64,000 bases of DNA from Pseudomonadota bacterium (GCA_018240785.1 JAFEFC010000038.1:1-64000); one strand, 5' to 3'. Numbered from the stretch's first letter, positions 14,135-38,125 are shown. Translations and numbers: made by a program. Notes: a model not told the origin generated them from the sequence alone.

Positions 14135-14270
14135 TCGCCGTCTGTCCTGGATGTTGCCTGCAAAGCGGCAAGGATTGTTGCGCCGCATTATGCGCGAAGC
14201 GGACCGCGATGCGGTCTGGCGGATAAAATCCGGTTTCGATTCTTCTTTCCGGCCCCGCGCCGCGCCCCTC

Positions 14271-16190
<1,920 letters not shown>

Positions 16191-23311: not shown

Positions 23312-24082
23312 CTATTCAGTGAGACGCTTGCGCTTCTCCGCCTCGTCGAACCCGCGCCCGATCTGCTCGCGCACGACATGCCACAGCGGATGCAGGATCC
23401 GCCGCATGTTGCGGATGATCTCCTCCACATGCATCACCGACGGGATGCGCAGCCCGCGGTGCTCGATCGGGCTGCCGATCTGTATCACCTCCACGCCCAG
23501 CTTGGCAAAATGCGCCGCAAGTCGTGGCTCGGTCAGCACGAAGACCGTGTCGATGCCGCTGCGCTCGGCGAGCGCTACTGCGCCCAGCAGCAGACTGGTG
23601 GGGATGAAGGGGAAGCGGGGCTGGTCGCCCGACGCGAAATCTTCTTCATGGATCTGCACTGGGCCATGCTCCTCGCCCTTGCGTCGCCGGTAATTGCGAT
23701 GCACCGCCAGCCGCGAGATTTCCGCAATCCGGTCGCGCGGCAACCGCGCAGGATCGAGGATGGAACGGTCCAGCGACGCCGCGCAAGTTTCTTCGAACGG
23801 CAGCGGAGCATCGGGATCCGAAGGGTCGGCGAGCACGATTCGCGTGCACCCAACCGGGTGGTACGGCTCGGACACCGTCCTCAGGAGGCAGTGAACGCTG
23901 TGTGCGTCGTGGACATCGATCTCGCGATGATCCGCTCGCACAGCCTCGAAGTGGAGATCTTCGCAGTAGACCGAGTGCCGCACGCGATAAACGGCGTCCT
24001 TGAGCTCATCGTCGAGCGCGGCATCGATGCGAAAGTAAGTGCTGAAGCCATTGCCGAGGTTGAAACGGTCGAAGAGCTGCAT
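23312..24082 (-). CDS. PEP-CTERM/exosortase-associated N-acyltransferase
   Basis: 256-residue GNAT-like enzyme of the exosortase-associated acyltransferase family, related to long-chain N-acyl amino acid synthases (FeeM type) and distantly to LuxI. Family landmarks are VYRVRHSVYCEDLHFE near the N-terminus, GCTRIVLAD and AEISRLAVHRNYRRR in the middle. Published work links such synthases to PEP-CTERM loci. The expected reaction is transfer of an acyl chain from acyl carrier protein to an amino acid amine. The start at 24082 fits the family N-terminus; a TTG at 24106 overlapping the permease stop is the alternative. Confidence 0.85.
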   Translation of the reverse strand: MQLFDRFNLGNGFSTYFRIDAALDDELKDAVYRVRHSVYCEDLHFEAVRADHREIDVHDAHSVHCLLRTVSEPYHPVGCTRIVLADPSDPDAPLPFEETCAASLDRSILDPARLPRDRIAEISRLAVHRNYRRRKGEEHGPVQIHEEDFASGDQPRFPFIPTSLLLGAVALAERSGIDTVFVLTEPRLAAHFAKLGVEVIQIGSPIEHRGLRIPSVMHVEEIIRNMRRILHPLWHVVREQIGRGFDEAEKRKRLTE

Positions 24083-24102
24083 GAAAGGGTCCAGTCTCGA
24101 TA

Positions 24103-25314
24103 TCAAGTGCGCTGCCTGAGTGCTTCAACCACCTCGGTGCGCGATACTCGACGGGCGGGAAAGATCGCCGCGAGCGAGGCAGCCACGACACCGATCAGGA
24201 AAGCAGAGGCCACGATTCCCGCATCCAGGCGGATCATCGCCGTGTAGCCGGTGTTTGCGCTTGGCGGCGGGGGCATGGGAATGCCGATCGCCGAGATCAA
24301 CAGCGCGAGCACGATCCCTATAACGGCACCCAAGGCGCCTCCCATTAGGCCCAGAAACACATTTTCCATCACGATCAGGCGGAACACGTCGCGACGCGTG
24401 TTGCCCAGCGCCTGTAGCGTTCCGAACTCACCCATGCGTTCGAAGGCGCTCATGTTCACGGTGTTGGCAACCGACAGCAGCACCATCACCAGGATGATGA
24501 GCTGCAGAACACCGAACTGGCGGTCGTAGAGCTGCAACGTCTTCTCATAGAAATCCGAAAGCTGCTTCCAGCTTCGCGCCTCGAGGCCGGCCGGCAGCAG
24601 CGCCTTGATCCTCTCCTGCGCCACGTCGGTGTCGGCGGTGCGGTGCAGCGTCACCACCAGCAGGTTGCCGCCGGGCGTGGCCATCAACTCCTGCGCGGCG
24701 GCGAGTGGGATTCGGATCGCGCGTGCGTCGAAATCCCGCGAGAAACTCTGGAAGATGCCCACCACCTCGACGTCGATGGTGTTCAGCGCCCCGCCGGTCG
24801 TGTTCATCAGCAAGGTCACCCGGTCGCCGATCTTGAGGCCGAGGGAGTGCGCCACGCCTTGGCCGATCGTCGTGCCGAAAAGATCGCTGTCAGCGAGCTG
24901 TCGGCCGGCAAGCATCTTCAGGAAGGAGCCGAGGCGCGCCTCCTTGTCGGGCTCCACGCCCTCGCCAACGATCGCCAGGTCGCGCTTGCCATTGTTCAAC
25001 AGCCCCGAGAAGCTGAGCCTTGTCGATACCTCGCTGACCAGCGGCTCCTTGGCGATCATCGACGCAATCGACTTCGGGTCGTCGATCAGGTAGCGCTCCG
25101 GTTGCCGGCTACCCTTCTCGCGAAAGCCCTCGCGGAACACTTGGACGTGTCCGGTCTCGGACTGGATGATGGCCTCGCCCAGTTGCACGAAGATGTCCTG
25201 CACGAAGCCGCCCGAGAGGATCAGCCCCACGACGCCGAACACGATCGCCGCTAGCGTGACGGCGCTGCGGACGCGCTGGCGGAATATGTTGCGCAAGGCG
25301 AGCTTGTAGAGCAT
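24103..25314 (-). CDS. FtsX/LolE-type ABC permease (1)
   Basis: 403-residue permease of the MacB/LolC-E architecture: one N-terminal membrane helix (AVTLAAIVFGVVGLILSGG), a periplasmic domain of about 230 residues, then three C-terminal helices with the FtsX core. A GIPMPPPPSANTGY loop precedes the last helix. It probably moves lipid-like substrates out of the inner membrane, but no ATPase gene is present in the window. It follows its paralog with 4 bases between them and precedes the acyltransferase. Confidence 0.85.
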   Translation of the reverse strand: MLYKLALRNIFRQRVRSAVTLAAIVFGVVGLILSGGFVQDIFVQLGEAIIQSETGHVQVFREGFREKGSRQPERYLIDDPKSIASMIAKEPLVSEVSTRLSFSGLLNNGKRDLAIVGEGVEPDKEARLGSFLKMLAGRQLADSDLFGTTIGQGVAHSLGLKIGDRVTLLMNTTGGALNTIDVEVVGIFQSFSRDFDARAIRIPLAAAQELMATPGGNLLVVTLHRTADTDVAQERIKALLPAGLEARSWKQLSDFYEKTLQLYDRQFGVLQLIILVMVLLSVANTVNMSAFERMGEFGTLQALGNTRRDVFRLIVMENVFLGLMGGALGAVIGIVLALLISAIGIPMPPPPSANTGYTAMIRLDAGIVASAFLIGVVAASLAAIFPARRVSRTEVVEALRQRT

Positions 25315-25318
25315 GGTT

Positions 25319-26560
25319 TCAGGTCTGGTGGCGCAGGGCGTCGACGATGTTCATGCGCGACGCCTTCCATGCGGGAAGAATGCTCGCGATCAGTGTGGTG
25401 ATGAAGGCGAGCAGGAAGCCCTGGATCGCGAGTGCGGCAGAAATGTCGATCCTGCCTGTATAGCCGCGAGACATGCCCGGCGGCGGCGGCATGGGAATGC
25501 CGACCATCGAGATGATCTTGCCCAGCACGAGGGCGATGCCGACCCCCAGAACGCCGGCGACCAGTCCGAGCACGACACCCTCCCAGATGAACAGCGCGAG
25601 GATGCCGCGCCGGCGTACCCCAAGCGCCATCGAGGTGCCGATCTCGACGGTGCGCTCGATGACGGCCATCGATAGCGTGTTGGAGATGCTTAGCGACACG
25701 ATGACTGCAATGAGCAGCAGTACGGCATTGACTTGGGTGCCGAAGAGCTCGACGGTCTTGTTGTAGAAATCCGCCAGATCATTCCAAGGGACGACGTCGT
25801 ATTGACCCGCGGGAAGTGAGGCGCGAAGTGCACTGACGGCCGCATTTGTGTGATCCGTGTCATCGAGCAGCACCACCCAGCTCGTGGCCCCGTCAACTCG
25901 CATCAGGCGGCGCGCAACCTCGATGGGTACGCGGATGGCTGTATCGTCGTAAGCTTTTACTGGCGTTGCGAAGATACCCGCCACTCTCAGTTCGACTGCA
26001 TTGACCCCGCCAGACGCGGTTGTTGCCACGAGCACCACAATGTCGCCCGGGTGCGCATCGATGTTCGCTGCGAGACCTTCGCCAAGCACCGCCGATTCGG
26101 CGCTGCTGGTGGCGAGGTCGCTGCCGGCCAGGATCGTGATTCCGCCGCTCAGCGGGATCTCGGCCTTCGGGTCGACACCCTCGCCAATGAAGGAAATCGT
26201 TGCGTCGTTCCGGCTGAGCAGACCAGTGAACGCAAGGCGAGGCGCGACCGTGCGGATGTCGAAAGTGGGCCCGGGTACGATGATCGATAGATCCTTCCCA
26301 AGCAGGAAACGATAAGGATCGCTTGCGCCGTCGCGAAAATAGCCTGGGCGGGTGATCTGTACATGTCCGAGTTGTGACTGGATCACGCCCTCTCGCATCC
26401 CCCACAGCACCCAGTTGATGAATCCCCCAGCAAGCAGAAACGAAATCACGCCGCCGCAGATGATCGCCAGTGCCAGCAAGGTGCGGCGCCGATGCCGGGT
26501 CAGGTTAACGATGGCAAGGCGAGCGTCTTGCACAGATTGGTGGATGAAGGGACGCCACAT
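25319..26560 (-). CDS. FtsX/LolE-type ABC permease (2)
   Basis: 413-residue permease, paralogous to the downstream gene and with the same topology: an N-terminal helix (LLALAIICGGVISFLLAGG), a large periplasmic domain and three C-terminal helices, including the shared GIPMPPPPGMSRGY loop. It is the first gene of a leftward operon with the second permease and the N-acyltransferase, and is divergent from the E1-like gene. The start at 26560 is the first ATG giving a normal cytoplasmic leader; no strong ribosome site is seen. The two permeases likely form a heterodimer. Confidence 0.82.
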   Translation of the reverse strand: MWRPFIHQSVQDARLAIVNLTRHRRRTLLALAIICGGVISFLLAGGFINWVLWGMREGVIQSQLGHVQITRPGYFRDGASDPYRFLLGKDLSIIVPGPTFDIRTVAPRLAFTGLLSRNDATISFIGEGVDPKAEIPLSGGITILAGSDLATSSAESAVLGEGLAANIDAHPGDIVVLVATTASGGVNAVELRVAGIFATPVKAYDDTAIRVPIEVARRLMRVDGATSWVVLLDDTDHTNAAVSALRASLPAGQYDVVPWNDLADFYNKTVELFGTQVNAVLLLIAVIVSLSISNTLSMAVIERTVEIGTSMALGVRRRGILALFIWEGVVLGLVAGVLGVGIALVLGKIISMVGIPMPPPPGMSRGYTGRIDISAALAIQGFLLAFITTLIASILPAWKASRMNIVDALRHQT

Positions 26561-26575
26561 TGCGATGTGAGCTTG

Positions 26576-26590
26576 GGGGCCGAGGTTGCT
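26576..26590 (+). promoter_or_regulatory. Candidate sigma-54 promoter of the E1-like operon
   Basis: GG at 26576-26577 and a perfect TTGCT -12 element at 26586-26590 are separated by the required 10 bases between GG and GC. It lies about 42 bases before the E1-like start. The rest of the -24 box matches poorly, so this is a candidate only; PrsR, encoded in the same window, is the obvious activator. Confidence 0.38.
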
Positions 26591-26631
26591 ATCATAGCTT
26601 TTAAGCCAATACGGATGAAGGAGGGTTGCCG

Positions 26632-27519
26632 ATGGGCGACCACTTTGCATACGACGTAGCCTTTTCGCGCAACATCGGGTGGGTCACAGAATTGGAGCAG
26701 GCCGCGCTGCGGGGCAAGCGTATTGCGATTGCCGGCATGGGGGGCGTCGGTGGGGGTCACTTGCTGACCTTGACGCGCTTGGGTATCGGTGCCTTCAACA
26801 TCTCCGATTTCGACACCTTCGACATTGCAAACTTCAATCGACAGGCGGGCGCCATGATGTCTTCCGTGGGGCGACCGAAGGTTGATGTGCTTGCGGAGAT
26901 GGCGCGCGATATCAACCCGGAATGCAGCCTGCGCTTGTTTCCGCAAGGCGTTTCGGAAGCCAATCTGGACGAGTTCCTGCGTGATGTGGATCTCTACGTC
27001 GATGCCATTGATTTTTTTGCATTCGAAACCCGCAGGGCGGTCTTTGCTGCTTGTCACCGCCTCGGGATTCCGGCCGTGACGGCCGCGCCACTAGGCATTG
27101 GCACGGCTGTCCTGATATTCATGCCCGGGCAGATGTCCTTTGAAGATTATTTCTGCCTTGATGGCTGCGATGAGGAGGAGATGGCCCTCCGCTTCCTGCT
27201 CGGCCTGTCACCGGCGATGCTGCAACTCGGCTATCTGGCCGATCCGTCGCGCGTCGACCTTGGCGAGCGCCGTGGTCCTTCCACTATCGCAGCTTGTCAG
27301 CTCTGTGCCGGCGCGATCGCAACCGAGGGGCTGAAGATACTGCTTAATCGGGGTAACATCATCGCGGCACCGAGAGGCTACCAGTTCGATGCGTATCGCA
27401 ATCGTCTCGTGCGGACGTGGCGTCCGGGCGGTAATCGAAATCCGATTCAGCGCATTGCCCTATGGGTGGCGCGAAGGCAGTTGAAGAGGATGAAGACGAG
27501 TGGGAGGGGCCATGCCTGA
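26632..27519 (+). CDS. E1/ThiF-like adenylating enzyme
   Basis: 295-residue ThiF/MoeB-type protein. The nucleotide-binding GMGGVG is at residues 35-40, the acidic DFDTFD and NFNRQ (69-71) match the E1 ATP site, and two cysteine pairs (Cys175/Cys179 and Cys222/Cys225) could bind zinc. No ubiquitin-like or ThiS-like partner is encoded nearby. Such enzymes adenylate a carboxylate, so an amino acid, peptide or N-acyl amino acid substrate is possible. The start at 26632 has an AGGAGG site 7 bases upstream. Its end overlaps the nitroreductase gene by 8 bases. Confidence 0.82.
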   Translation: MGDHFAYDVAFSRNIGWVTELEQAALRGKRIAIAGMGGVGGGHLLTLTRLGIGAFNISDFDTFDIANFNRQAGAMMSSVGRPKVDVLAEMARDINPECSLRLFPQGVSEANLDEFLRDVDLYVDAIDFFAFETRRAVFAACHRLGIPAVTAAPLGIGTAVLIFMPGQMSFEDYFCLDGCDEEEMALRFLLGLSPAMLQLGYLADPSRVDLGERRGPSTIAACQLCAGAIATEGLKILLNRGNIIAAPRGYQFDAYRNRLVRTWRPGGNRNPIQRIALWVARRQLKRMKTSGRGHA

Positions 27520-28615
27520 TCGAGAAACCCTGGTGCGGATTCTGGATCTGGCCCGCTGGGCCCCCAGCGGCGACAACACCCAGCCATGGCGGTTCAAGAT
27601 CATCGATGACGGACGTGTCGCGGTGCATGGCTTCGATACTCGTGATCATGTCATCTATGACTTCGACGGTCATGCGAGTCATATCGCACATGGGGCCCTT
27701 CTCGAAACGATACGCATCGCCGCAAGTGGCTTCGGGTGTACAAGCGCCTGGAAGTTGCGACCGGGCTGTCCGGATACTGCGCCAATCTATGATGTGTTCG
27801 TCAGAGAAGAAGCGAACCTTGGCGCCGATCCCCTCCTTGCTTACATCCAGACACGGGTCGTGCAACGGCGTCCGATGCGCACGACACCTCTCACTTCGAT
27901 GCAGAAGCAGGTTTTGACCACGGCGCCAGGCGAGGGCTACGAGGTTCGTTTCTTTGAGTCCGCCGCCGACCGGTGGGCCATGGCGAAGTTGCTGTGGGAG
28001 AACGCCTATGTTCGTCTGACGTGCCCCGAGGCCTTCCAGGTTCACCGTGAGGTGATCGAGTGGGGCGCGCGCTTTAGCAGGGACAGGATTCCGGAGCAGG
28101 CGGTCGGAGTCGATCCGCTGACCGGCAAGCTGATGCGCTGGGTCATGAAAAGCTGGGGGCGCGTCGACTTTTTCAATCGGTATCTGTTCGGTACGATCGT
28201 GCCGCGGATTCAACTCGACCTGCTCCCCGCGCTAGGCTGCGCGGCGCATCTGGTCTTGCATGCGGCAAGGCCGCCTTCAGACTTGGCTGACTACGCTCGG
28301 GTGGGCGGCGCTATCCAACGGCTGTGGCTTACGGCCGCATCTGTGGGTTTGCACCTTCAGCCCGAGATGACGCCCGTCATTTTCAACTGGTATGCGCGCG
28401 CGGGTCGGTCCGTCTCTGTCCTGGAAGGGCTCAATCGTCGAGTTGGATCCCTTGCTGGTCAAATCGGGAAGCTCATGGGGCCAGCCGGTTCTGCGGGTCT
28501 TGTGTTCATATGTCGGGTCGGCGTTTCGGACACCCCCATTTCGAGGTCGACTCGAAAGGATCTAGACGAGCTGACGGCACAGGCCTGGCAAACTGAAAAA
28601 TCGAACTCGGTATAG
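27512..28615 (+). CDS. Nitroreductase-fold flavoprotein
   Basis: 367-residue protein of the nitroreductase superfamily, longer than the usual 180-220 residues. The N-terminal LARWAPSGDNTQPW segment is a typical FMN-phosphate binding motif, and a later GGAIQRLWLTAASVGLHLQP matches the family's second conserved helix. Residues 150-270 are an insertion of unknown role. It overlaps the E1-like gene by 8 bases, with GGGAGGGG as ribosome site. Single-chain ThiF-nitroreductase fusions exist in actinobacteria (for example Rv1355c), so the two proteins probably work on one substrate. Confidence 0.8.
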   Translation: MPDRETLVRILDLARWAPSGDNTQPWRFKIIDDGRVAVHGFDTRDHVIYDFDGHASHIAHGALLETIRIAASGFGCTSAWKLRPGCPDTAPIYDVFVREEANLGADPLLAYIQTRVVQRRPMRTTPLTSMQKQVLTTAPGEGYEVRFFESAADRWAMAKLLWENAYVRLTCPEAFQVHREVIEWGARFSRDRIPEQAVGVDPLTGKLMRWVMKSWGRVDFFNRYLFGTIVPRIQLDLLPALGCAAHLVLHAARPPSDLADYARVGGAIQRLWLTAASVGLHLQPEMTPVIFNWYARAGRSVSVLEGLNRRVGSLAGQIGKLMGPAGSAGLVFICRVGVSDTPISRSTRKDLDELTAQAWQTEKSNSV

Positions 28616-28628
28616 ATGGGGAGACACG

Positions 28629-29285
28629 GTGCGCAAGATCTCAATCTCGCAGATTGCGTTCTTCATGTTTCTGCTCTTGGTGATCATCACCCTCGGCGTC
28701 GGTACGACCTACGGATTGCTCGGTGCGCTACCCCTAGGCGACTTTCGGGGCGTCGTTTTGGTCACGGCGGGGGTGGGATTTGTGTACCTTTGGGCAATGG
28801 CGATCTACAGGGCTTTTCTCCGCGTCATGCCCCTGAGGGAAGGCGAATTGGCGAACGGGTCGCGGGAAGAGTTTGCAGCCCAGGTCAACATTCTCTTTTA
28901 CCTCTTCCTGTTCAATTCACTGATTCGTACACACTTTTTGCCTGTCCCTATCATGCGTCTAGTGTATCTGGCGCTTGGGGCGCGCCTTGGAGCGAACACG
29001 TATAGCGCGGGGGTGCTGCTCGACCCACCGCTGACTGAGTTCGGCGACAACTGCATCATCGGACACGATGCAGTTCTGTACAGTCACGCGATCGAGGGGG
29101 CGCGGTTTTCCCTTGCGAGAATACGAGTAGGCAGCCACGTCACCATCGGTGCTACAGCCGTTGTCATGTCGGGCGTGACGATAGACGACGGTGCCATCGT
29201 GTCAGCGGGGGCAGTGGTGCTGAAGGATACGCGAATCGGAGCAGGAGAGGTGTGGGGGGGGGTTCCGGCAAGGCGTCTGCGATGA
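28629..29285 (+). CDS. Membrane-anchored hexapeptide-repeat acyltransferase
   Basis: 218-residue protein with two N-terminal membrane helices (about 8-30 and 40-62), a further hydrophobic stretch near 90-115, and a C-terminal left-handed beta-helix domain with hexapeptide repeats (IRVGSHVTIGATAVVMSGV and following). The domain ends with the GEVWGGVPAR signature common to acetyltransferases. Membrane anchoring suggests O- or N-acylation of a lipid-linked product. The start is GTG 28629, preceded by GGGGAG. A tract of nine Gs at 29254-29262 near the 3' end could allow frameshifting. Confidence 0.78.
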   Translation: MRKISISQIAFFMFLLLVIITLGVGTTYGLLGALPLGDFRGVVLVTAGVGFVYLWAMAIYRAFLRVMPLREGELANGSREEFAAQVNILFYLFLFNSLIRTHFLPVPIMRLVYLALGARLGANTYSAGVLLDPPLTEFGDNCIIGHDAVLYSHAIEGARFSLARIRVGSHVTIGATAVVMSGVTIDDGAIVSAGAVVLKDTRIGAGEVWGGVPARRLR

Positions 29286-29383
29286 AGGGAGGTGTCGGTA
29301 AATTTTACATCAGACCGATGCTCGGCCCTCTAAGGCACCATTCATATTTTGCAAGGCATTGATTTAAAAAAAGAAAGTTTTTC

Positions 29384-29399
29384 AGGCCTGAATCCTGCT
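29384..29399 (+). promoter_or_regulatory. Candidate sigma-54 promoter of the PEP-CTERM gene
   Basis: GG at 29385-29386 and GC at 29397-29398 have the exact 10-base spacing of -24/-12 promoters (AGGCCTG, 4 bases, CTGCT). An AT-rich tract lies just upstream at 29363-29382. The predicted transcript would start near 29410, giving a leader of about 75 bases. The match is partial; regulation by PrsR is inferred from known PEP-CTERM control. Confidence 0.4.
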
Positions 29400-29486
29400 T
29401 TAATCTTTCTAGGGCTAGGTAGCATGGACGCCCTGAGGCCCAGCTAGGGCGCTCGGCACGAGAATGCAACGACAGATTGGAGATAA

Positions 29487-30485
29487 ATGATGAAAGTTAA
29501 GAAAACTGCCCTGGCTGCCGGTGTTGCTGCCGCGATTGCCTTGGGCCTCGCAGGTCATGCAAATGCCAGCGTGTATGCCAGCTCGGCTCTTGCTATCAAG
29601 GATTTCACGGTGCAAATTGCCACACCGACTGCGAATCCGATCAAGACCTATGAATTCACGATTACGAACACGGCCACTTTGAATGGGGTGAGCGCCCCCG
29701 TCCAGACGAATACTTGCTCTGGCGGCGCGCCGGGTACGGGGTGCACAGGAAGTCCCTCGCTAGATGTTGCCGCAGCGAACGCGCCCGGTGGCACGGTAAC
29801 GCGCAGCAATAACGACTTCAGCTTCTTTGGCCCGGGCACGAATACCTACTCCAATGCCGACTCGGTGATCTATACTTCGGAGCTTGGCGGGACAGGGCCG
29901 AGCTCCACGCAGCAAATCGCCGAATCCGAGATTCAAAGCACGGGCTCCGCGAGGGCGAACGCAGAGATCACTTCCAACACCGGGTTCAGCTTCACGTTTA
30001 CGGTTTCTGGGACTGGCAGCTTGGTTCTGTCCTTCAATGCCGATCCCAGCCTGTACGCCGAGATCAATCAACTGCTCTTCACGAATGGTAGCGCTCAGGC
30101 GAACATGAACGCGTCATTCACGCTGTCGAAGGATGACGGCACGAGCACTGTCAATTGGCGCCCGAACGGTACTCAAGGTATCAACGACTGCACGGTGGTT
30201 GGTTCGGTGGCGAGCGTGGCTTGCACCGAAGATAATGACAACGCCGATTTGAACCAGAACGTCGGAGTGACGTCCAACCCGGGCGTTGCGCAACTCAGTC
30301 GCGCAGCGGGATGGTCGCTGATGGGTATTTCCGTCAATGGTCTGACGGACGGAGATTGGACGCTCGTTTTTAACGCTGTTACGTCGACGACTGTCCGTAC
30401 GGTTCCCGAGCCCAGCGCCCTTGCTCTTCTGGGCATTGCGGTCGCCGGTATGGGTGCTGTGACTCGCCGCCGGAAGTTGGTCTGA
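29487..30485 (+). CDS. PEP-CTERM sorting-domain surface protein
   Basis: 332-residue exported protein. A signal peptide ends at about residue 28 (AGHANAS). The body is rich in Ser, Thr, Asn, Gly and Ala, which suits a glycosylated extracellular protein. The C-terminus has the full exosortase signal: VPEPSALALLGI at 306-317, a hydrophobic helix and the basic TRRRKLV tail. Exosortase should cut near the PEP motif. The start is ATG 29487 or 29490; GGAG lies 4 or 7 bases upstream. Its own terminator follows, so it is probably monocistronic. The biological role of the body is unknown. Confidence 0.92.
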   Translation: MMKVKKTALAAGVAAAIALGLAGHANASVYASSALAIKDFTVQIATPTANPIKTYEFTITNTATLNGVSAPVQTNTCSGGAPGTGCTGSPSLDVAAANAPGGTVTRSNNDFSFFGPGTNTYSNADSVIYTSELGGTGPSSTQQIAESEIQSTGSARANAEITSNTGFSFTFTVSGTGSLVLSFNADPSLYAEINQLLFTNGSAQANMNASFTLSKDDGTSTVNWRPNGTQGINDCTVVGSVASVACTEDNDNADLNQNVGVTSNPGVAQLSRAAGWSLMGISVNGLTDGDWTLVFNAVTSTTVRTVPEPSALALLGIAVAGMGAVTRRRKLV

Positions 30486-30603: not shown

Positions 30604-31130
30604 GTAAGCCCCCGGCGAACGAATCTGGCCGTTTCGCTCAGACGCAGGCGACCGGCTGCCACCGATGCGGCAGCAAATCCCCAATCTTGCTATAGGGCTG
30701 AGTCGGCAGCCGTTCGAGCACATCCTTGAGATACGCAAAGGGCTCGTGGCCGTTGAGCCGCGCGGACTGGATCAGGCTCATGATCGCAGCCGCGCGCTGG
30801 CCCGCCCGCAGGCTACCCGCGAGCAGCCAGTTCTTGCGCCCGAGCGCAATCGGCCTGATCTGGTTCTCGATCCAGTTGTTGCCGATGGGCATGCGGCCGT
30901 CGTCGACGTAGTGCGTGAGCGCGACCCCGCGCTTGAGGCTGTAATCGATGGCGCGAGCGATGCCCGAGCCGTTGGGAACCTGGGTGCGCCGCGCGAGCAG
31001 CCACGCATGCAGACGCTCAAGGATGGGGCGGGCCTTCACGTCCCGTAAGCCCTGCCGGGCATCGATATCGAGTTCAACCGATTCACGCTCAACGCCGTAG
31101 AGCTGTCGGTGCCGATTTAAAGCTGACCCC
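30604..31130 (-). mobile_element. IS66 fragment (right end and tnpC 3' part)
   Basis: The left boundary carries the IS66-type terminal repeat GTAAGCCCCCGGCGAAC at 30604, facing outward. The fragment holds the 3' part of tnpC on the minus strand and breaks off near 31125-31132, where unrelated inverted-repeat DNA begins. tnpA, tnpB and the other terminal repeat of this copy are missing. Confidence 0.75.
30638..31126 (-). pseudogene. tnpC: IS66 transposase TnpC, 3' fragment
   Basis: About 160 codons of the C-terminal catalytic part remain, from LYGVERE near 31100 through DDGRMPIGNNWIENQIRP, the last acidic region of the IS66 DDE domain, to the conserved tail ALLPHRW-type (here DLLPHRW). The N-terminal zinc and HTH parts and the first Asp residues are gone, so it cannot act as a transposase. 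A GTG at 31039 opens the longest start-to-stop frame but is not a true start. Confidence 0.82.
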
Positions 31131-31132
31131 CC

Positions 31133-31180
31133 GAGTTCGACAGTTACGCTCGCAAGTGCTGGTTTTTGCTAGAGAGCACT
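31133..31180 (+). repeat. Orphan IS end, inverted relative to 33722-33771
   Basis: This stretch begins CCCGAGTTCGACAGTTA and matches, at roughly 75-80% by eye over about 48 bases, the reverse complement of 33722-33771. It abuts the IS66 terminal repeat at 31181. It is probably a leftover end of an element related to the IS1634-like copy, or one half of a pair bracketing the mosaic. Confidence 0.6.
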
Positions 31181-31842
31181 GTAAGCATCCGGCGAACCCA
31201 CCTTCCTGCGGCCACTTAGCCCATCGAAGATCGTGTCCACTAATTTTCGATGGTGGACACGATGGATGTGGTTATCCCGCGCCGGAGTCGGCGCTCGCAC
31301 AGCGAAGCCTTCAAGCAGTCTGTAGTCTCAGCATGTTGTGAGCCCGGCGTCTCGGTGGCCGGCGTGGCCCTGGCCAACGGCCTGAACGGCAACCAGGCGC
31401 ATCGCTGGATGCGCGAGCGCGGCATCGAGCCGCCGAGCCGGCGCAAGCCGGTCGGCGTGGGACTCACTGCGTTGGCCGAGCAGGGCTTTATGCCGGTGCA
31501 GGTCGCCCCCGCAGTCGAGACACCGGTGATCCGCCTCGAAGCGCAGCGTGGCAACGCCCGTGTGAAGCTCGAGTGGCCGCTCCAGGCCGCCGATGCGTGC
31601 GGGGCGTGGCTGCGCGAGTGGCTCGCATGATCCGCATCGAGGCGCTGTGGTTGTCAGCCGCGCCCTTGGACATGCGCGCCGGCATGGACATCGACACGCT
31701 GCTCGCGCAGGTGGTGCGCGTGTTCGGCCAAGCACAGCCCCATCACGCCTACCTCTTCAGTAACCGGCGCGGCACGCGCTTGAAGGTACTGGTCCATGAC
31801 GGCTTCGGAGTGTGGCTCGCGTGCCGGCGTTTGAACCAGGGC
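31181..31842 (+). mobile_element. IS66 fragment (left end, tnpA, partial tnpB)
   Basis: It opens with the IS66 terminal repeat GTAAGCATCCGGCGAACC and contains tnpA and the first two thirds of tnpB, overlapping by 4 bases as usual for IS66. It is interrupted at about 31842 by the IS1634-like element. Its tnpC does not follow on the other side of that insertion. Confidence 0.78.
31250..31630 (+). CDS. tnpA: IS66 accessory protein TnpA
   Basis: 126-residue protein of the IS66 OrfA family with an N-terminal helix-turn-helix (RRSHSEAFKQSVVSACCEPGVSVAGVALANGL split over residues 13-44, then NQAHRWM). It binds the element's ends. An 11-bp inverted repeat (31230-31240 and 31253-31263) covers the start codon and may hide the ribosome site, a common way to limit transposase synthesis. 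ATG 31262 is an alternative start. The gene appears intact but sits in a broken element. Confidence 0.82.
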   Translation: MVDTMDVVIPRRSRRSHSEAFKQSVVSACCEPGVSVAGVALANGLNGNQAHRWMRERGIEPPSRRKPVGVGLTALAEQGFMPVQVAPAVETPVIRLEAQRGNARVKLEWPLQAADACGAWLREWLA

Positions 31843-31914
31843 CCCGGGGTTCGACACTTCGCCCCGATTTTCGCCCCTTTTCGGAAAGTGCCTCCAGCAC
31901 CAGCGCGGGTTTGA
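31627..31914 (+). pseudogene. tnpB: IS66 TnpB, truncated
   Basis: The first 72 codons match the IS66 OrfB family (start MIRIEALWLSAAPLDMRAGMD-like, then DGFGVWLACRRLNQG). Family members continue with GRFHW and about 40 more residues; here the frame runs into the end of the IS1634-like element after about 31842 and stops at 31914. It starts at an ATGA overlap with tnpA. Confidence 0.8.
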
Positions 31915-33771
31915 AGGCCATGATCGCGAAAGTGTTGTGGTGGCACGTTTGTAACAGCGTCCGCTAAACTTGGCGGCGCTTTGTCGGTCTCTAAAGTGGC
32001 GGCATGCACGTCAAGCTCACTACCTCCGGAGGTCGCCGCTACGTCCAACTCGTCGAGTCCTATCGCGACGAGGCCGGACGAGTGAAGAAACGCACCGTCG
32101 CCACGCTCGGCCGTGCCGAGCAGGTCGATGGGTCGCTCGATGCGGTCATCAATGGCCTGCTGAAAATCACCGGCCGCGAGCCGATGGGCGCCAAACCGCC
32201 GGCGCCGACGGTGACATTCGAGTCCGCGCGGGCGCTCGGCGACGTGTGGGCGCTGACCGAGTTGTGGAAGTCGCTGGGTTTCTCGGGGCTGCGCCGGGTG
32301 TTTCGCCGCACGCGCCGCACCACGGACGTGGAGGCGCTGATCCGTCTGATGGTCCTCAACCGTCTGTGCGACCCCGAATCCAAGCTTGGCGTGCTGCGCT
32401 GGGTGCAGACCGTGGCGCTGCCCGACTTCGCGCCGAAGGCGGTGACGCACCAGCAGTTGCGGCGCAGCCTTGATGCGCTGATGGATCACCAGGACGAGGT
32501 CGATGCGGTGGTCGCCGGGCTGCTGCGCCCGCTGATCGACCAGGATCTGTCGGTGGTGTTCTACGACCTCACCACGATCCGCAGCGAGGGGCTCAGCCAG
32601 CAGGCCGGCGATGTGCGCCAGTTCGGCATGGCCAAGGAGGGGCTGATTGCCCGCCAGTTCATGCTCGGCGTGGTGCAGACCGCCGAAGGGCTGCCGATCT
32701 ACCACGAGGTGTTCGACGGCAACACGGCTGAGACCCGAACCCTGCTGCCGACGCTGACCAAGGTGCTCGAGCGCTTCCCGTCGGTGCAGCGTCTGGTGCT
32801 GGTGGCCGACCGGGGGCTGCTCAGCCTGGACAATCTGGAGGCGCTGAAAGCCGTGCGCCTGGCCAGCGGCAAGCCGCTCGAATTCATCGTCGCCGTGCCG
32901 GGGCGGCGCTACAACGAGTTCATCGAGCTGCTTGAGCCCTTCCACGAACAACGGTGCGCCACCGCCACGCAGGAAGTGATCGCGGAGCACGCCTGGAACG
33001 ACCTGCGGTTGGTGGTCGCGCACGACCCAGTAACGGCCGCCACCCAGACCGAACAGCGCAACGAGCGCATCGACGCGCTGACCCGCCAGGCAGACCAATG
33101 GACGGGCAAGCTCACCGAGCAGGACGAAGGCGTGAAGCATCGGGGCCGCAAGCTCTCGGACAGCGGCGCCAAGGCGCGCTTCTACCACGCAGTCAGCGAG
33201 GCGCACCTGTCGCGCATCATCAAGGTGGAGCTGGCTGAGGAGCTGTTCAGCTAATACATCGACGACAAGGCCAAGCGTCTCGCCGAAATGATGGACGGCA
33301 AGCTGCTGTTGGTCACCAACGCCGAGGGCCTGTCCGCGCAGAACGTGATTCAGCGCTACAAGTCGCTCGCTGACATCGAGCGCGGCTTCAAGGTGCTCAA
33401 GTCCGAGATCGAGATCGGCCCCGTGTATCACCGCCTGCCCGAGCGGATCCGCGCGCATGCGTCGATCTGCTTCATGGCGCTGATCCTGCACCGGGTGATG
33501 CGCAGCCGACTGAAGGCCGCTGACGTGGGCTACACACCCGAGCGCGCGCTCGAACAGTTGCAGCGCATCCAGCACCACCGCGTGCGCCTGCCTGGCGGCG
33601 AGCCGGTGGCGGGGGTGTCGACGATCAGCACGGAGCAGAACGAGGTGCTTCATGCGCTGGGGATAGGAGCGCCAGCAGCGCCGGAGCAGCTGGCGCTGTT
33701 GTAGTGGCATTCTTGAAAGCTCGCTCTAGAAGAATCAAGCACTTGCGCGCTTAACTGTCGAACTCGGGAGC
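31843..33771 (+). mobile_element. IS1634-like insertion sequence
   Basis: An element of about 1.9 kb interrupts the IS66 tnpB. The left edge reads GGGGTTCGACACTTCGC and the right edge, read inward, GAGTTCGACAGTTAAGC, sharing GTTCGACA and little more, so the inverted ends are poor and the exact borders uncertain. No target duplication is visible because the two flanks come from different elements. It carries one transposase gene broken by a nonsense codon. Confidence 0.65.
32004..33704 (+). pseudogene. IS1634-family transposase with internal stop
   Basis: 566 codons of an IS4-superfamily IS1634-type transposase start at ATG 32004 (HVKLTTSGGRRYVQLVESYR). Motifs include YDLTTIRSEG and ADRGLLSLDN with catalytic Asp residues, and a C-terminal YKSLADIERGFKVLKSEIEI with the Y-(2)-R-like Glu region. 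A single TAA at 33252-33254 separates EELFS from YIDDKAKRL in the same frame, so the gene is inactivated by one substitution unless read through. The catalytic Glu region lies after the stop. Confidence 0.85.
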
Positions 33772-34107: not shown

Positions 34108-36897
34108 CTAATTTTTTGCGAGTGTACCAATCAAGCGTCGCGCCTCGTTAGCCTGCGTTGAGTTGGGGAAGTTCTTTGCAACCCTTTCTAGAACTTCACG
34201 TGCTTCGCGGTGTTCTCCCTGAAGTATGAGAATGGATGCAAGGTGCATCTGGATCTCGGGACGTCCGGGAGCGCGTTGGGCCGCTTCGCGGATAAGATTG
34301 TAGGCGCGCGGGCGATCCCCGTTTTTCAATGTCATCATTCCAACCGTGTCAAGAACGTCCGGATCCGCTGGAGAGAGATTTTGTGCTCGCTGCGCGTACT
34401 CCATGGCTCTTGCCGGATTTCTATCGCTGTAGAGCCAAGCGATATTGTTCAATGCGGGGACATGGTTCGGCAAGATATCGAGTACCTTCGCATAAGTTGA
34501 AATGGCCTCATCGCTCCGCTCCAATGCGAGATAGTCGCCAGCTAGTTCCATAAGAACTCCAACATCCTTGGGGTGGTCTTCCAGCCACTTGTTTAGAACG
34601 CCGAATCCCTCATCATGCTTTTGCTGAAGAAGCATCGACCGCGCAAGCAACACCGTCAACTCTGCGTCTGGGTGCTTGTGCAATGCAGCCGAAAGCCGCG
34701 CCTCCGCCAATGCCGGATTTCCGGTGCCCAATGCAAACCATCCTTCTATCCCGAGAATCTCCGCGCGTTCGCCAAAATCGCCTCTTAGCCTCACCAGAGC
34801 CTTCTGGGCCTTATCCATTTCACCCGCATGCACCAGCATTTTTACTTCGCCAATACGCGCTGGAACAAATCTGGGGTCGAGTTCGATGGCGGTCCTTAGT
34901 TCCTTCCGGGCATTCTCCAAATTACCTTTGCGTGAAAGGGTTTCGGCAAGCAGGAAATGGGGTGCGGCAGAACTTGGCATTAGCCGCGACCATTGTTCGA
35001 AAGTGTTCCTGGCTCCTGTGACGTCGCCGGAAAGCATTTGGGCCTTGCCACGCAACTCCAACAACTTTGGTGCGGACTTCAGTTGCGAATCAGAGCGGCC
35101 ACTCGTTATCGCAAGGACGCGAGAAAGATTGCCGACGGCAAACTGCTCGGCAGCAAGACGCTCTGCCGCAGCGAGTGCGCCGGGGTTGTCTTTCACGACT
35201 GGTTCCAAGATGCTGATGACGCTGGCTGCGTCGGCTGCCTTGACCGCCATGTCTGCGAGCATCATGGCTGCTGGCTCGTCTCCCGGATGCTGCTTCAGTA
35301 GGCTCTGCAATGTCGATTTTGCTTCAGCCTGCTTTCCCTCCCGTAGTTGCAGGATGGCCAGATTTCGGGCAGCCGAGGGTTCGTCGGGTTGGAGTGCAAG
35401 CACCTTCAGCAGTGCGTCTTTTGCAAGATCCCACTTGCCCGCGGCCAGGTAACAGGCCGCAATGAGGTTGATGGGGTCGACCTTGTCCGCGTGTGTCTGA
35501 TGAATCTTCCTGGCCTGCTCAAGAGCCACTGCAATTCTGCCCTTGCGAAAATCGTTCAGTGCAAGCAGCATGGAACGCTCGTAATCATTGGCTCCTGCAG
35601 AGCTCGAATTACTTGCAATCCGATCAAAATCCTGACCGGCAACCAGTTTGGCTGCCATCAGCATGTGTTGCGCTTCGTCGGAGTCGGGGTCCAATGTCGC
35701 TAGCTTTTGGGCGTACTCAACAGCACCGCGCTCGTCTCCGTCAAGCATGGACAGCGTCGACAGCATTCGGAGGGTTGCCTTATCCTGCGGGGCGCTTGCG
35801 AGAGACGATTGCAGCATTTTGCGAGCCGCCGAGTATTCGGAGCGGTTGATCTGGATAGCGCCGAGGAGTTCACGAGCCGAGCTGGAGCGAGGGGTGCTGG
35901 AATAGAGGGCCTTTGCATGTTCAAGAGCTTGTTCAGTCTGTCCCTGCAGGAACCGCGTCGTTGCGAGATACATCCGGTTTGGCAGAAACGACGGATCTGC
36001 CGCGTAGCTGGCCTCGAATGCGGTGCCAGCTTCAGAGTATTTCTTTTGCTGGAAGTCGATGAGACCTTGGACGTAATTGACGTACCAGTGATTCTTCCAG
36101 CCGCGCTGCTTCAATGCATTGATGTCGGCTACAGCTTCCTCGTATTTCTTGAGTTGTAGGCGAGCAAGCGCGCGTCTTGCGCGGTCGAGACTTGGTTGCT
36201 TGCGGAACTCGACGGCGCGGTCGTAGGCCTTCTCTGCTTGTTCGGCATTCCCCCGGGAAAGCTCCAATTCGCCAAGAGTGCTCCACCCTTCTGCTGAGGA
36301 AGAGTCAGTCTCGAGTGCTTTGTCGATCCATGATTTGGCTTCTTCATATTGGCTGGCCGCGAGGTGCGTCACTGCCATGCCGACGAGCGCCGTTGTCGCC
36401 TTGGCGTCGATCTCTAGCGCCTTTTCGAGAACGGGGCGTGCATCACTGGCCTGACCCTTAAGGAGCAGCGCCTGGCCGCGGAGGCCCAAGAGCATGGCCC
36501 TTTCCGATGGAGGTGCATCATCAGGAATAAGTGAGGTTTCGGCAAGCGCCTTGTCGACAGCGCCCTGCAGCATGAGCGCCTTGACAAGTGTCAATTGCCC
36601 TGTCGCGCGTGGGAGACCGAACTGGATTGCATGCCTAACGTCCTTTTCGGCGCGAGCGGCATCTCCAGATTGCAGCGCAACCTGCGCCATCAGCCAGCGC
36701 GCGTCGACGTTATTGGGAGCTTGTGCGAGCGCGTTGGAGAGCTGCAGAGAAGCGGCTTGCAGTTCGCCCTTCTTGTAGTGTGCTTGCGCTTTCTGAATAT
36801 ATTCCTCAGGGTTTGTCTGGCTACAGCCAAAAACCGCAAATTGAATTGCAGCGGCGAGGGCAATGAATCTAAGGCTCCGAGAATTGGTTAACTTCAT
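34108..36897 (-). CDS. Second PrsT-type TPR lipoprotein
   Basis: 929-residue lipoprotein with the same length and architecture as PrsT at 5961-8762: signal peptide, lipobox VFGC (Cys about residue 25), then tetratricopeptide repeats to the end, including LNNIAWLYSDRNPARAMEYA and DTVGMM blocks that align with LNNLAWTASQIKDPKALEYG and DTVGMI of the first copy. Codon use is less GC-rich than its neighbours, suggesting separate ancestry. The start at 36897 has AAAGGA 8 bases upstream; ATG 36906 would leave no spacing. It is last in a leftward operon with a glycosyltransferase. Confidence 0.85.
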   Translation of the reverse strand: MKLTNSRSLRFIALAAAIQFAVFGCSQTNPEEYIQKAQAHYKKGELQAASLQLSNALAQAPNNVDARWLMAQVALQSGDAARAEKDVRHAIQFGLPRATGQLTLVKALMLQGAVDKALAETSLIPDDAPPSERAMLLGLRGQALLLKGQASDARPVLEKALEIDAKATTALVGMAVTHLAASQYEEAKSWIDKALETDSSSAEGWSTLGELELSRGNAEQAEKAYDRAVEFRKQPSLDRARRALARLQLKKYEEAVADINALKQRGWKNHWYVNYVQGLIDFQQKKYSEAGTAFEASYAADPSFLPNRMYLATTRFLQGQTEQALEHAKALYSSTPRSSSARELLGAIQINRSEYSAARKMLQSSLASAPQDKATLRMLSTLSMLDGDERGAVEYAQKLATLDPDSDEAQHMLMAAKLVAGQDFDRIASNSSSAGANDYERSMLLALNDFRKGRIAVALEQARKIHQTHADKVDPINLIAACYLAAGKWDLAKDALLKVLALQPDEPSAARNLAILQLREGKQAEAKSTLQSLLKQHPGDEPAAMMLADMAVKAADAASVISILEPVVKDNPGALAAAERLAAEQFAVGNLSRVLAITSGRSDSQLKSAPKLLELRGKAQMLSGDVTGARNTFEQWSRLMPSSAAPHFLLAETLSRKGNLENARKELRTAIELDPRFVPARIGEVKMLVHAGEMDKAQKALVRLRGDFGERAEILGIEGWFALGTGNPALAEARLSAALHKHPDAELTVLLARSMLLQQKHDEGFGVLNKWLEDHPKDVGVLMELAGDYLALERSDEAISTYAKVLDILPNHVPALNNIAWLYSDRNPARAMEYAQRAQNLSPADPDVLDTVGMMTLKNGDRPRAYNLIREAAQRAPGRPEIQMHLASILILQGEHREAREVLERVAKNFPNSTQANEARRLIGTLAKN

Positions 36898-36916
36898 GAG
36901 TCTCATCCTTTGATAT

Positions 36917-38125
36917 TCAGTGGCTTGACAGGCATTGTGAGATGGAAGTTTCGATCGTTTGACCGATCGCGTGGGGATCGGTCGATTTCATTAGCACTTT
37001 CGATCGCGCTGCATATCCAGCGTCGAAGAGGAGTTCCACTGCGCGCTTGAGTTCCTGTGTGCTGGCGCGGTCGCCTCTCACGAGCCTTCCCGCTCCGAAC
37101 CTCTCAATCGCCGCCATGTTCAAGAACTGATCCATGTTCCATGGAATTCCAAGCACGGGTACTCCGTGCAAGAGTGCCTGGCTTGTAGTCGGACTGCCGC
37201 CGTTGCAGACGACGAGCGCTGCGCGCTGGCACACGAGATCGCCCGGGACGTAGTCGAAAACTCGGGTTCGGTGCGAGCGCAGATCGCAGGATAGTTTCTT
37301 TCCGGCGGTTGAAACGACGACGTCGCAATCCAGTTGCTCGAGTACGGATGCGATGTTCGTCAGTACTTCCGTTTTGCCGGAGCTTCCCATCGTCACGTAG
37401 ACAAGTCGCTTCTCCCCTTGAGGAAGATCGAGCGGCGCGGTCGGTGTCGGCGACCAGGAGAGCGGACCAATGAACGCCGCTTGGTCGTTCAGAGTGACTT
37501 CTGGGAACAGCATGGGGAAGTTTGCGAACAGGCGAAGGTCGGCATCTGTATAGCAGCGACGCAGATCATGTTCGAGGGGCGGAAGCCCGTGGCGCGCGCG
37601 CAGCCGCTCGATCGGGAGCGTGTGCAGCCGCATCGCCAGCGGCGAAACGCACTGGAACAAGAGCGCAGCAACCGGGATCGGAATAAAGCGTGTGAATGAG
37701 AGTACCGGAAGCGGCGGTCTGAGCGGGTATTCCGGGCTCCAGTATGCGTCACAGACCGTGATGTAAGGCACATTTCGCAATCGCGCGCTGACCGTTAGCG
37801 ATAGCCGGAAATCGCCGATGATGACGTCGGGCGCTTCAGCATCGATCAAGGCTAGATCGTCTGCCGCGTATTTCTCAAGGGTGGCGTAGTCGTAAAGCGG
37901 CAAGCCATGCTCGAGGCGCCGGGTAAAGATGGCGCTGCTTTGACAGCGCAGGTCGACAGTGCGGAATGGCGCGTCGGCGGTGAGCCAGGCGTATGTCGCT
38001 GGGCGGGCGAATACCACTTCGAAACGTGCTGCGTCGAGCGAGCGCGCGAGGACGAATGGCCGCGCCGCGTGTGCGAGCGTGGCACCTTCCGCGAAAAACA
38101 GGACCTTCAAGTGCGAGTGGGGCAT
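36917..38125 (-). CDS. GT1-family glycosyltransferase
   Basis: 402-residue GT-B glycosyltransferase of the UDP-glucuronosyl / MGT type. The N-terminal KVLFFAEGATLAHAARPFVLARSL segment is the acceptor domain start; the C-terminal nucleotide-sugar domain has YVTMGSSG and the VCNGGSPTTSQALLHGVPVLGIPWNMDQ signature, in which the usual His of the donor site is Asn. Such enzymes glycosylate lipids, carotenoids or small molecules. AAGG lies 6 bases before the start. It is followed after 19 bases by the second prsT. Confidence 0.82.
   Translation of the reverse strand: MPHSHLKVLFFAEGATLAHAARPFVLARSLDAARFEVVFARPATYAWLTADAPFRTVDLRCQSSAIFTRRLEHGLPLYDYATLEKYAADDLALIDAEAPDVIIGDFRLSLTVSARLRNVPYITVCDAYWSPEYPLRPPLPVLSFTRFIPIPVAALLFQCVSPLAMRLHTLPIERLRARHGLPPLEHDLRRCYTDADLRLFANFPMLFPEVTLNDQAAFIGPLSWSPTPTAPLDLPQGEKRLVYVTMGSSGKTEVLTNIASVLEQLDCDVVVSTAGKKLSCDLRSHRTRVFDYVPGDLVCQRAALVVCNGGSPTTSQALLHGVPVLGIPWNMDQFLNMAAIERFGAGRLVRGDRASTQELKRAVELLFDAGYAARSKVLMKSTDPHAIGQTIETSISQCLSSH

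Follow-up and report, generated by a model that had tools for sequence, protein, structure and literature searches.

A candidate exosortase-A-linked N-acyl amino acid lipid locus with a putative split Lol-like exporter in a Pseudomonadota bacterium

The window analyzed here is a 64,000-nucleotide stretch of a Pseudomonadota genome (GCA_018240785.1 JAFEFC010000038.1:1-64000), in which two divergent operons occupy positions 23312..29285. On the minus strand lie the genes for an N-acyl amino acid synthase of the TIGR03694 family, with a LuxI/FeeM-like GNAT fold (23312..24106), and for two ABC permease subunits, permB (24103..25314), which is of the LolE/MacB type and lacks an ATPase domain, and permC (25319..26560; FtsX/MacB_PCD), of the LolC/E type; permB and the start of the synthase gene share 4 bases. 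The plus strand encodes an E1/ThiF-like enzyme, probably an ATP-dependent cyclase (26632..27519), a nitroreductase-fold, flavin-dependent oxidase resembling Acg and the C-terminal part of Rv1355c (27500..28615; PF00881), and a membrane-anchored, accessory hexapeptide acyltransferase (28629..29285), followed by a PEP-CTERM protein of the EDSAP-1 family (29487..30485, plus strand). Every gene that the preliminary description had placed in the locus is present there as an open ORF, and the 71-base divergent intergenic region it reported (26561..26631) is exact, running from the permC ATG at 26560 to the E1 ATG at 26632. The PEP-CTERM protein that it put at the end of the locus was likewise confirmed, with 281 bits against NF041538 (cut-off 100) and a TIGR02595 match over the cut-off. 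The window contains 11 loose sigma-54 matches, none of them within the intergenic region or the stretch from 29285 to 29487, and the intergenic region has no site near the consensus. One match with two mismatches, at 28575, falls within the end of the oxidase gene and precedes the hexapeptide gene by 54 bases.

The synthase scored 250 bits against TIGR03694 exosort_acyl (cut-off 112) and 52 bits against PF13444, along with 24 bits against PF21926 FeeM, below the cut-off of 27 for that model. The E1-like enzyme matched PF00899 (149 bits) and PRK08223 (462 bits, cut-off 266), and 18 aligned homologs share an invariant GMGGVGG loop (in which the second position varies), NFNRQ, D124-x2-D127 and one CxxC, the first three of these being the ATP-binding motifs of ThiF-like cyclases. 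Its closest relatives in the PDB are TcdA, ThiF and MoeB. TcdA catalyzes an ATP-driven cyclodehydration, and its position as the best PDB relative hints at the same chemistry for the E1-like enzyme. The oxidase scored 106 bits against the Acg/Rv3131 family, below the cut-off of 199, and aligned to positions 372-718 of the Rv1355c family with 104 bits, below the full-length cut-off; its closest PDB relative is Acg (2ymv).

Proteins in which the E1 and the oxidase are fused were observed directly, and segments of a single NCBIfam model, PRK14852, match all three functions, namely, a FeeM-type synthase (33-222), an E1 (311-588) and the oxidase (614-692), these being partial matches to the model. 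By its homology to ThiF and MoeB, the E1-like enzyme could instead activate a ubiquitin-like or sulfur-carrier protein. We judged such a role extremely unlikely because of the E1-oxidase fusions, and the multi-domain models PRK14852, PRK14851 and Rv1355c also argue against it; no such carrier was noticed beside the E1 gene among ORFs of at least 90 amino acids, although these carriers would be shorter.

The core enzymes belong to a kind already known. An N-acyltransferase, a ThiF-like ATP-dependent cyclase and an oxidase of the nitroreductase superfamily, adjacent or fused, also make up the mycobacterial Tyz (TyzA/B/C) and Trz (TrzA/S) acyl-oxazolone systems and OxzAB of Pseudoalteromonas rubra, and the biochemistry of TyzA/B/C and TrzA/S has been demonstrated by others. 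The present locus differs from these in its TIGR03694-type acyltransferase, its Lol-like permeases, which contrast with the mmpL9 transporter gene near tyz, its hexapeptide enzyme and its PEP-CTERM context. The clusters for stieleriacine, kyonggic acid and thalassotalic acid, from Pseudomonadota and Planctomycetota, similarly combine an N-acyl amino acid synthase with ThiF and nitroreductase genes; in their producers, the ThiF genes are present but an oxazolone was not observed. In the extracts of the published accounts, the Stieleria cluster shares a PEP-CTERM gene with our locus, and no dedicated exporter is described for any of the three. The Stieleria cluster further holds a methyltransferase, whereas none was seen in 23312-29285. 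Here, the synthase is next to the ThiF and oxidase genes, but the two permeases stand between it and the E1. The presentation of the gene set as one not usually described together therefore does not hold for the enzymes, which are those of the Tyz/Oxz/Trz/stieleriacine set. The dedicated exporter is the unexpected part.

The best NCBIfam match of both permeases is lolCE, yet neither reaches the score of this equivalog (95.8 bits for 24103-25314 and 92 bits for 25319-26560, compared with a cut-off of 362). permB matched PF12704 (72 bits) and PF02687 (64 bits), and the predicted fold of permC resembles LolC/LolE. At 403 and 413 amino acids, and with no ABC_tran match, the two proteins are not MacB-type fusions of an ATPase with a permease. 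A profile search for exporter-type ATPases gave nothing above 250 bits in the whole window. The sole ABC gene among the Pfam-scanned ORFs (14151-16190) encodes a two-domain, ABC-F-like protein with an ABC_tran_CTD domain and was rejected as the permease ATPase. The locus is thus not the closed unit it had been taken for: its permeases come without an ATPase, and their likely partners sit in the XrtA locus. There, on a different contig, an ATPase, a LolA-like carrier and a DUF1302 barrel are encoded beside the exosortase-A polysaccharide operon. The ATPase scored 217 bits against the LolD equivalog, below the cut-off of 308, and the structure model of a DUF1302 homolog is a beta-barrel of modest confidence (mean pLDDT 66). 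In this genome, no such permease is encoded in the 20 kb around the XrtA-locus ATPase. In locus L081, ATPase, permC and permB are collinear, as they are in L080, which is cut by a contig end. Taken together, permC and permB look like two subunits of a five-part Lol-like exporter, the other parts being the XrtA-locus ATPase, the LolA-like carrier and the DUF1302 barrel.

The distribution of these genes across 150 related genomes points the same way. The LolA-like gene (at least 377 bits; 14 further genomes with weaker LolA matches were counted as absent) was found in 39 genomes and the permeases in 42, with both in 39. The permease count comprises matches of at least 465 bits to our profile A2 plus G021 (424 bits for permB, with permC cut) and G095 (345 bits, contig end). 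It excludes G147 (377 bits, with a LolA of 178 bits next to it), the second copy in G041 (371 bits) and every weaker FtsX match, these weaker matches looking like other paralogs. Outside the genus of the window, permeases occur in all 28 genomes with the LolA-like gene, and this gene in 28 of 29 permease genomes. The ATPase adjoins LolA in 38 of 39 loci, as does DUF1302 (38/39). Outside the order, each of the 13 permease pairs is accompanied in its stretch by the ATPase and LolA, with DUF1302 also present for 11 and the E1 for 9 (the single permeases of G240, 308 bits, and G467 contig 170, 339 bits, are not among these pairs). No LolA was found near either single permease, and one of the two has an ATPase.

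Conceivably, the permeases use a housekeeping LolD and are a general transporter that lies next to the enzymes by chance. The window has no ATPase of the exporter type, and the genome encodes other LolD/MacB-type ATPases, which are 40-49% identical to that of the XrtA locus. Against this, the permeases occur together with the XrtA-locus trio in 39 of 42 genomes, with the collinearity in L081 and the pairs outside the order adding to the linkage, and they are only about 25-35% identical, over the matched parts, to the other permeases of the genome. At the other FtsX-permease loci of the same genome, an ATPase was present in the fetched stretch in 6 of 8 cases (one was without it and one was left out). 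We consider a chance neighborhood very unlikely and favor the split exporter.

The biosynthetic side is more loosely assembled. The preliminary description had joined synthase, permeases, E1, oxidase and hexapeptide acyltransferase in one pathway; among 47 of the 49 E1 genomes (the loci in G003 and G122 were left out; E1 was called from 300 bits upward, and its count takes in two subtypes), the five families lie together at one locus in only two, but the sub-modules do stay together, with the synthase within 10 kb of the E1 in 41, the oxidase within 5 kb in 33 and the permeases within 8 kb in 28 (not so in the other 19). The hexapeptide enzyme (PF00132, 40 bits; two hydrophobic N-terminal segments) lies within 6 kb of the E1 in only 5 of the 47, and we therefore rejected it as a core part of the pathway. 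An MMPL pump is found near the E1 in nine of these genomes, none of which has the permeases near the E1. Permeases and E1 are both encoded in 29 genomes, including our own, and are within 10 kb of each other in 28, which is more than chance would give. Thirteen of the 42 permease genomes lack the E1, so the cargo of the exporter may be wider than the cyclized product; ten have no TIGR03694 match over the cut-off, some of them having FeeM-type genes. By this criterion, the synthase is present in 51 of 150 genomes, and some match at E 0.001 or better in 127. Within the genus of the window, mere presence showed no association of the permeases with the E1 (p = 0.43) or the synthase (p = 0.41); the co-occurrence p-values for the 150 genomes are uncorrected for kinship, which inflates significance. 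A second sample, of 80 E1 loci, is biased to close relatives because these are the best 80 of 540; many end at contig ends, and 48 of the 80 are at least 18 kb long. The Oxalobacteraceae search, which covered 16 of the 18 among these loci, gave 16 genomes with an E1, all 16 with the oxidase profile beside it and none with a permC-type match above 262 bits; the enzymes are thus also encountered where this exporter is missing.

The exporter closely follows the exosortase. All 39 genomes with the LolA-like gene and 40 of the 42 with permeases encode an exosortase (any PF09721 match), which lies within 40 kb in 23 of the 39. Exosortase A, PEP-CTERM proteins, the EPS operon and PrsT are all present over the cut-offs in our own genome, with XrtA at 336 bits (cut-off 208; L114:12241-13890) and 10 PEP-CTERM matches; in L098, a kinase gene and a regulator gene scored 62 bits (TIGR02916, cut-off 300) and 338 bits (TIGR02915, cut-off 503) against the PrsK/PrsR models. 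We know of no accepted reason why N-acyl amino acid synthases should lie beside PEP-CTERM genes. Synthases of the same kind with the same PEP-CTERM linkage were reported by Craig, Cherry & Brady 2011, as related in citing papers. In the main text of Haft 2006, the terms "acyltransferase" and "ABC transporter" have 0 occurrences each, and among the entries listed from the PEP-CTERM/exosortase literature, subscription journals and preprints aside, no title or abstract opening describes such an exporter.

With a probability of roughly 0.57, we interpret the locus as the half of an exosortase-A-linked system that makes an N-acyl amino acid lipid, a system completed by a split Lol-like exporter. 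Gene content, predicted folds, co-occurrence and linkage are the observations from which we infer the reactions and their product, the permease-ATPase complex, the cargo and direction of transport, and the link to protein sorting. The synthase would N-acylate an amino acid with a fatty acyl group, the amino acid probably being aromatic and, by analogy, tyrosine. At the expense of ATP, the E1/ThiF enzyme would then activate the carboxylate and form an oxazolone ring, and desaturation of the cyclized product with O2 would fall to the flavin oxidase; the ring may be retained or may open again, giving an N-acyl-dehydroamino acid. Optional decorations could come from the hexapeptide enzyme and from the glycosyltransferase (see below). 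The permC/permB pair, driven by the XrtA-locus ATPase, would pull the amphiphile out of the inner membrane and pass it on to the LolA-like carrier, and through the DUF1302 barrel it would arrive at the outer membrane or surface, in the neighborhood of EPS and PEP-CTERM proteins. The preliminary interpretation is supported in part: precedent and co-occurrence speak for N-acylation, ATP-dependent activation and cyclization, oxidation, export and the PEP-CTERM tie, but an undescribed set, a closed unit and a core role of the hexapeptide enzyme are not supported.

Known transporters share parts of this scheme. Compared with LolCDE-LolA, all components here fall below the Lol equivalog cut-offs, a DUF1302 barrel adjoins and lipid enzymes are linked; the cargo of LolCDE is protein, not free lipid. 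Aat (AatPABCD) likewise combines a LolC/E-related permease, a LolD-related ATPase and a dedicated acyltransferase, which in Aat serves surface display, but it acylates a protein and has T1SS-type outer-membrane and adaptor proteins, in place of the LolA-like carrier, DUF1302 barrel and amino acid N-acyltransferase found here. AmeABCD also pairs DUF1302 with a LolA-superfamily protein (DUF1329) for hydrophobic cargo, but is energized by an RND (HAE3) pump rather than by an ABC ATPase. Alternatively, the product could be a diffusible signal or antimicrobial and the permeases, which resemble MacB too, could provide self-protection or efflux; for stieleriacines, an effect on the biofilms formed by competitors has been reported (PMC12479983). 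The constancy of the LolA-like and barrel partners and the linkage to the XrtA EPS locus make this unlikely.

Another possibility is that the exporter carries not free lipid but PEP-CTERM proteins anchored, after exosortase processing, to an N-acyl amino acid-derived lipid. This would fit the near-universal exosortase in exporter genomes, the position of the trio inside the XrtA locus, the PEP-CTERM-like ORFs (crude motif) in 55 of the best 80 of 540 E1 loci, and the lipidated protein cargo of LolCDE and Aat. Yet N-acyl amino acids lack the free amine with which a transpeptidase intermediate could be resolved, and the LolA-like gene is missing from 44 of 83 exosortase genomes, so sorting itself does not require this gene. 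We regard this reading as quite unlikely. A specific version, in which exosortase A cleaves PEP-CTERM proteins that are then anchored on the N-acyl amino acid-derived lipid or acylated by its reactive oxazolone, and moved to the outer membrane by the Lol-like machine and the DUF1302 barrel, is a long shot; were it true, Gram-negative bacteria would have a second lipoprotein route, based on the C-terminus, and it would hold for those 39 of the 83 sampled exosortase genomes that have the exporter.

If the preferred reading, export of the lipid itself, is right, Lol-type extraction has been reused for a small lipid, and a transporter candidate emerges for the N-acyl amino acid-type lipid class, the physiological role of which is called a major unresolved question in the mycobacterial work. 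An exporter of five parts whose occurrence follows that of the exosortase-A system also offers defined targets for gene deletion.

Beyond transposase genes, as seen from the biosynthetic locus, the minus strand encodes PrsT, the TPR protein of the XrtA/PEP-CTERM system (34108..36906; TIGR02917, 581 bits, cut-off 312), which may be associated with the lipid pathway. Next to it lies a UGT/EryCIII-like glycosyltransferase (36917..38125, minus strand; PF06722, PF00201; 518 bits to our own profile GT14), a possible tailoring gene, homologs of which occur near the E1 in 27 of the best 80 of 540 E1 loci.

Every ORF named in the preliminary description was found at its place in an ORF check of the window. 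The N-acyltransferase (synthase; 23312-24106; TIGR03694, 250 bits against a cut-off of 112) and two Lol/MacB-type permeases, permB (24103-25314) and permC (25319-26560), are encoded leftward. Across a 71-base intergenic gap, the rightward genes begin with an E1/ThiF protein (26632-27519; PRK08223, 462 bits against 266), followed by an oxidase of the nitroreductase fold (27500-28615) and then a hexapeptide acyltransferase with a membrane anchor (28629-29285), with an EDSAP-1 PEP-CTERM protein gene 3' of the latter. Past transposase genes, the same island encodes PrsT, which is a named protein of the XrtA system (581 bits against 312), adjoined by a UGT-like glycosyltransferase (36917-38125). 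The region 30638-33254, which parts the PEP-CTERM gene from PrsT, holds IS66 pieces (30638-31039 and 31573-31914) and a 416-aa ORF with no Pfam match, transposase-like by eye. A thioester-reductase-like protein (38206-39795) is likewise encoded next to PrsT, and a WbuX-like N-acetyl sugar amidotransferase (41134-42219) scores 97 bits, below the cut-off.

The lipid chemistry originally proposed for this locus is plausible in outline and the locus is real, but the enzymes are not, as had been claimed, a set not usually described together: N-acyltransferase, ThiF and nitroreductase are already known from Tyz, Trz and stieleriacine-type loci. Mycobacterial acyl-tyrazolones are made by TyzA (N-acyltransferase), TyzB (a ThiF homolog performing ATP-dependent cyclisation) and TyzC (a nitroreductase-superfamily oxidase performing O2-dependent desaturation), and tryptazolones by TrzA and TrzS, a ThiF-oxidase fusion; NAS, ThiF and nitroreductase genes also occur together in producers of thalassotalic acid, kyonggic acid and stieleriacine. 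All these sets comprise the same three enzyme kinds as the synthase, E1 and oxidase of the window, which are a further instance of this known kind. The E1 retains the ATP loop and paired aspartates, and its nearest solved structures are TcdA, then ThiF and MoeB; that of the oxidase is Acg, on which the flavin site of TrzS had been modelled. In four loci (L236, L237, L240, L248), E1 and oxidase were directly observed as a single-frame fusion, as in Rv1355c/TrzS. One NCBIfam model, PRK14852 (989 positions), is matched over different segments by a relative's FeeM-type synthase (33-222) and by the E1 (311-588) and oxidase (614-692) of the window, all partially and below the full-length cut-off, suggesting a putative triple fusion of the three enzyme functions.

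Unlike the enzyme set, the proposed split, exosortase-linked Lol-like exporter has no earlier description among the literature matches listed. PermC and permB score far under the Lol equivalog cut-offs, and a profile search of the whole 64 kb window revealed no matching ATPase. Their partners are likely encoded elsewhere in the genome, the hint where to seek them coming from relatives, in which an ATPase, a PF17131 LolA-like protein and a DUF1302 protein are often encoded close to the synthase. The genome of the window contains one strong and two weak PF17131 matches; around the strong one lie the LolA-like, ATPase (with Walker A, LSGGQ and Walker B) and DUF1302 genes, followed by a second, FeeM-type synthase (L098:12386-13168, on contig C1 of this genome, G000; PF21926, 164 bits) and the XrtA polysaccharide (EPS) operon (TIGR03027/03007/03018/03016/03015, each above its cut-off). 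Exosortase A (336 bits against 208) is encoded ~22 kb from the LolA-like gene.

Among 150 genomes, this one included, we identified synthases above the cut-off in 51, E1 in 49, the permeases in 42, the LolA-like protein in 39 and an exosortase in 83. Permeases and LolA-like protein occurred together in 39 genomes and the latter never alone (p = 7e-33; here and below, p-values ignore kinship); the three genomes with permeases only (G021, G027, G063) are draft assemblies in roughly 390 to 540 contigs. Within the genus of the window, this association persists (both/permeases only/LolA-like only/neither, 11/2/0/16; p = 2e-6), and permease presence is associated with neither E1 (p = 0.43) nor synthase (p = 0.41). 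Outside the genus, the corresponding table is 28/1/0/92, and permeases are associated with both E1 (p = 5e-8) and synthase (p = 6e-11). The ATPase and DUF1302 genes each neighbour the LolA-like gene in 38 of the 39 loci, the misses being L071 and L080, the latter truncated by a contig end. In G144 (L081), the ATPase, permC and permB genes are collinear on one strand, and in G059 (L130), the trio of ATPase, LolA-like and DUF1302 genes, E1-oxidase, permeases, FeeM-type synthase and EPS operon fall within about 13 kb. In a second sample, 14 of 369 genomes of the class, besides that of the window, matched at E 1e-90, and 13 of these contain the permC/permB pair; for these 13 pairs, some of which share a genus, the stretch on which they lie (20 kb at most) also encodes ATPase and LolA-like protein in 13, DUF1302 in 11, E1 in 9, oxidase in 8 and a TIGR03694-type synthase in 6. 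The tie between the exporter/lipid system and exosortase A is statistically strong.

The locus is modular. Of the 49 E1 genomes, 47 had their E1 locus examined: a synthase of either type lies within 10 kb of E1 in 41, the oxidase within 5 kb in 33 and the permeases within 8 kb in 28, while the 10 kb around E1 include a glycosyltransferase in 11 and an MMPL pump in 9, and the hexapeptide enzyme is within 6 kb in 5. Permeases and MMPL pump never occur together at these loci, as though they were alternative exporters. Permease, oxidase and synthase co-occur in 20/47, but all five families rarely do: the set including the hexapeptide enzyme is complete in the window and G020 (2/47), and G019 and G026 have all of it except the synthase on their stretch. 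Among the best 80 of 540 E1 loci, 52 have any synthase, 64 the oxidase, 30 the permeases, 55 a PEP-CTERM-like ORF, 13 the hexapeptide enzyme, 27 a glycosyltransferase and 11 the full trio, in all 11 cases with permeases. Since 16 Oxalobacteraceae possess E1 and oxidase with no permC/permB-type exporter found, and 13 of the 42 permease genomes lack E1, the enzymes do not require the exporter, nor the exporter E1. In these Oxalobacteraceae, no synthase lies within the E1 stretch; 14 encode a strong FeeM-type synthase (181 bits or more) elsewhere, and in the other two, the sole FeeM-type match is near 28 bits, just above the cut-off of 27, a kind of match that 12 of the 14 have as well, as their second one.

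Given the presence, predicted folds, linkage and co-occurrence observed, the most likely route leads from synthase through E1 and oxidase to the exporter. The synthase would join an acyl donor and an amino acid, E1 would close the ring of the N-acyl amino acid at the expense of ATP, and the oxidase would desaturate it with O2. The resulting oxazolone might persist or open, which would fit both the open dehydro forms reported for other producers and the effect of acid quenching in the Tyz work. After optional acylation or glycosylation, ATPase, permC and permB would extract the product and pass it to the LolA-like protein; at the DUF1302 barrel it would then leave or be inserted. The lipid may decorate the EPS/PEP-CTERM matrix, anchor proteins or merely be co-regulated.

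A distinct cluster (L060, L072, L076, L090-L094), resembling those of stieleriacine, contains extra synthases, E1 without a nearby oxidase, a LolA-like gene, an MMPL pump and, in most cases, a methyltransferase. In eight genomes (G029, G031, G035, G053, G066, G112, G113, G126), a single paralogous FtsX permease (about 240-275 bits) adjoins a LolA-like gene with a weaker match (about 139-151 bits); this is a separate, though related, carrier system.
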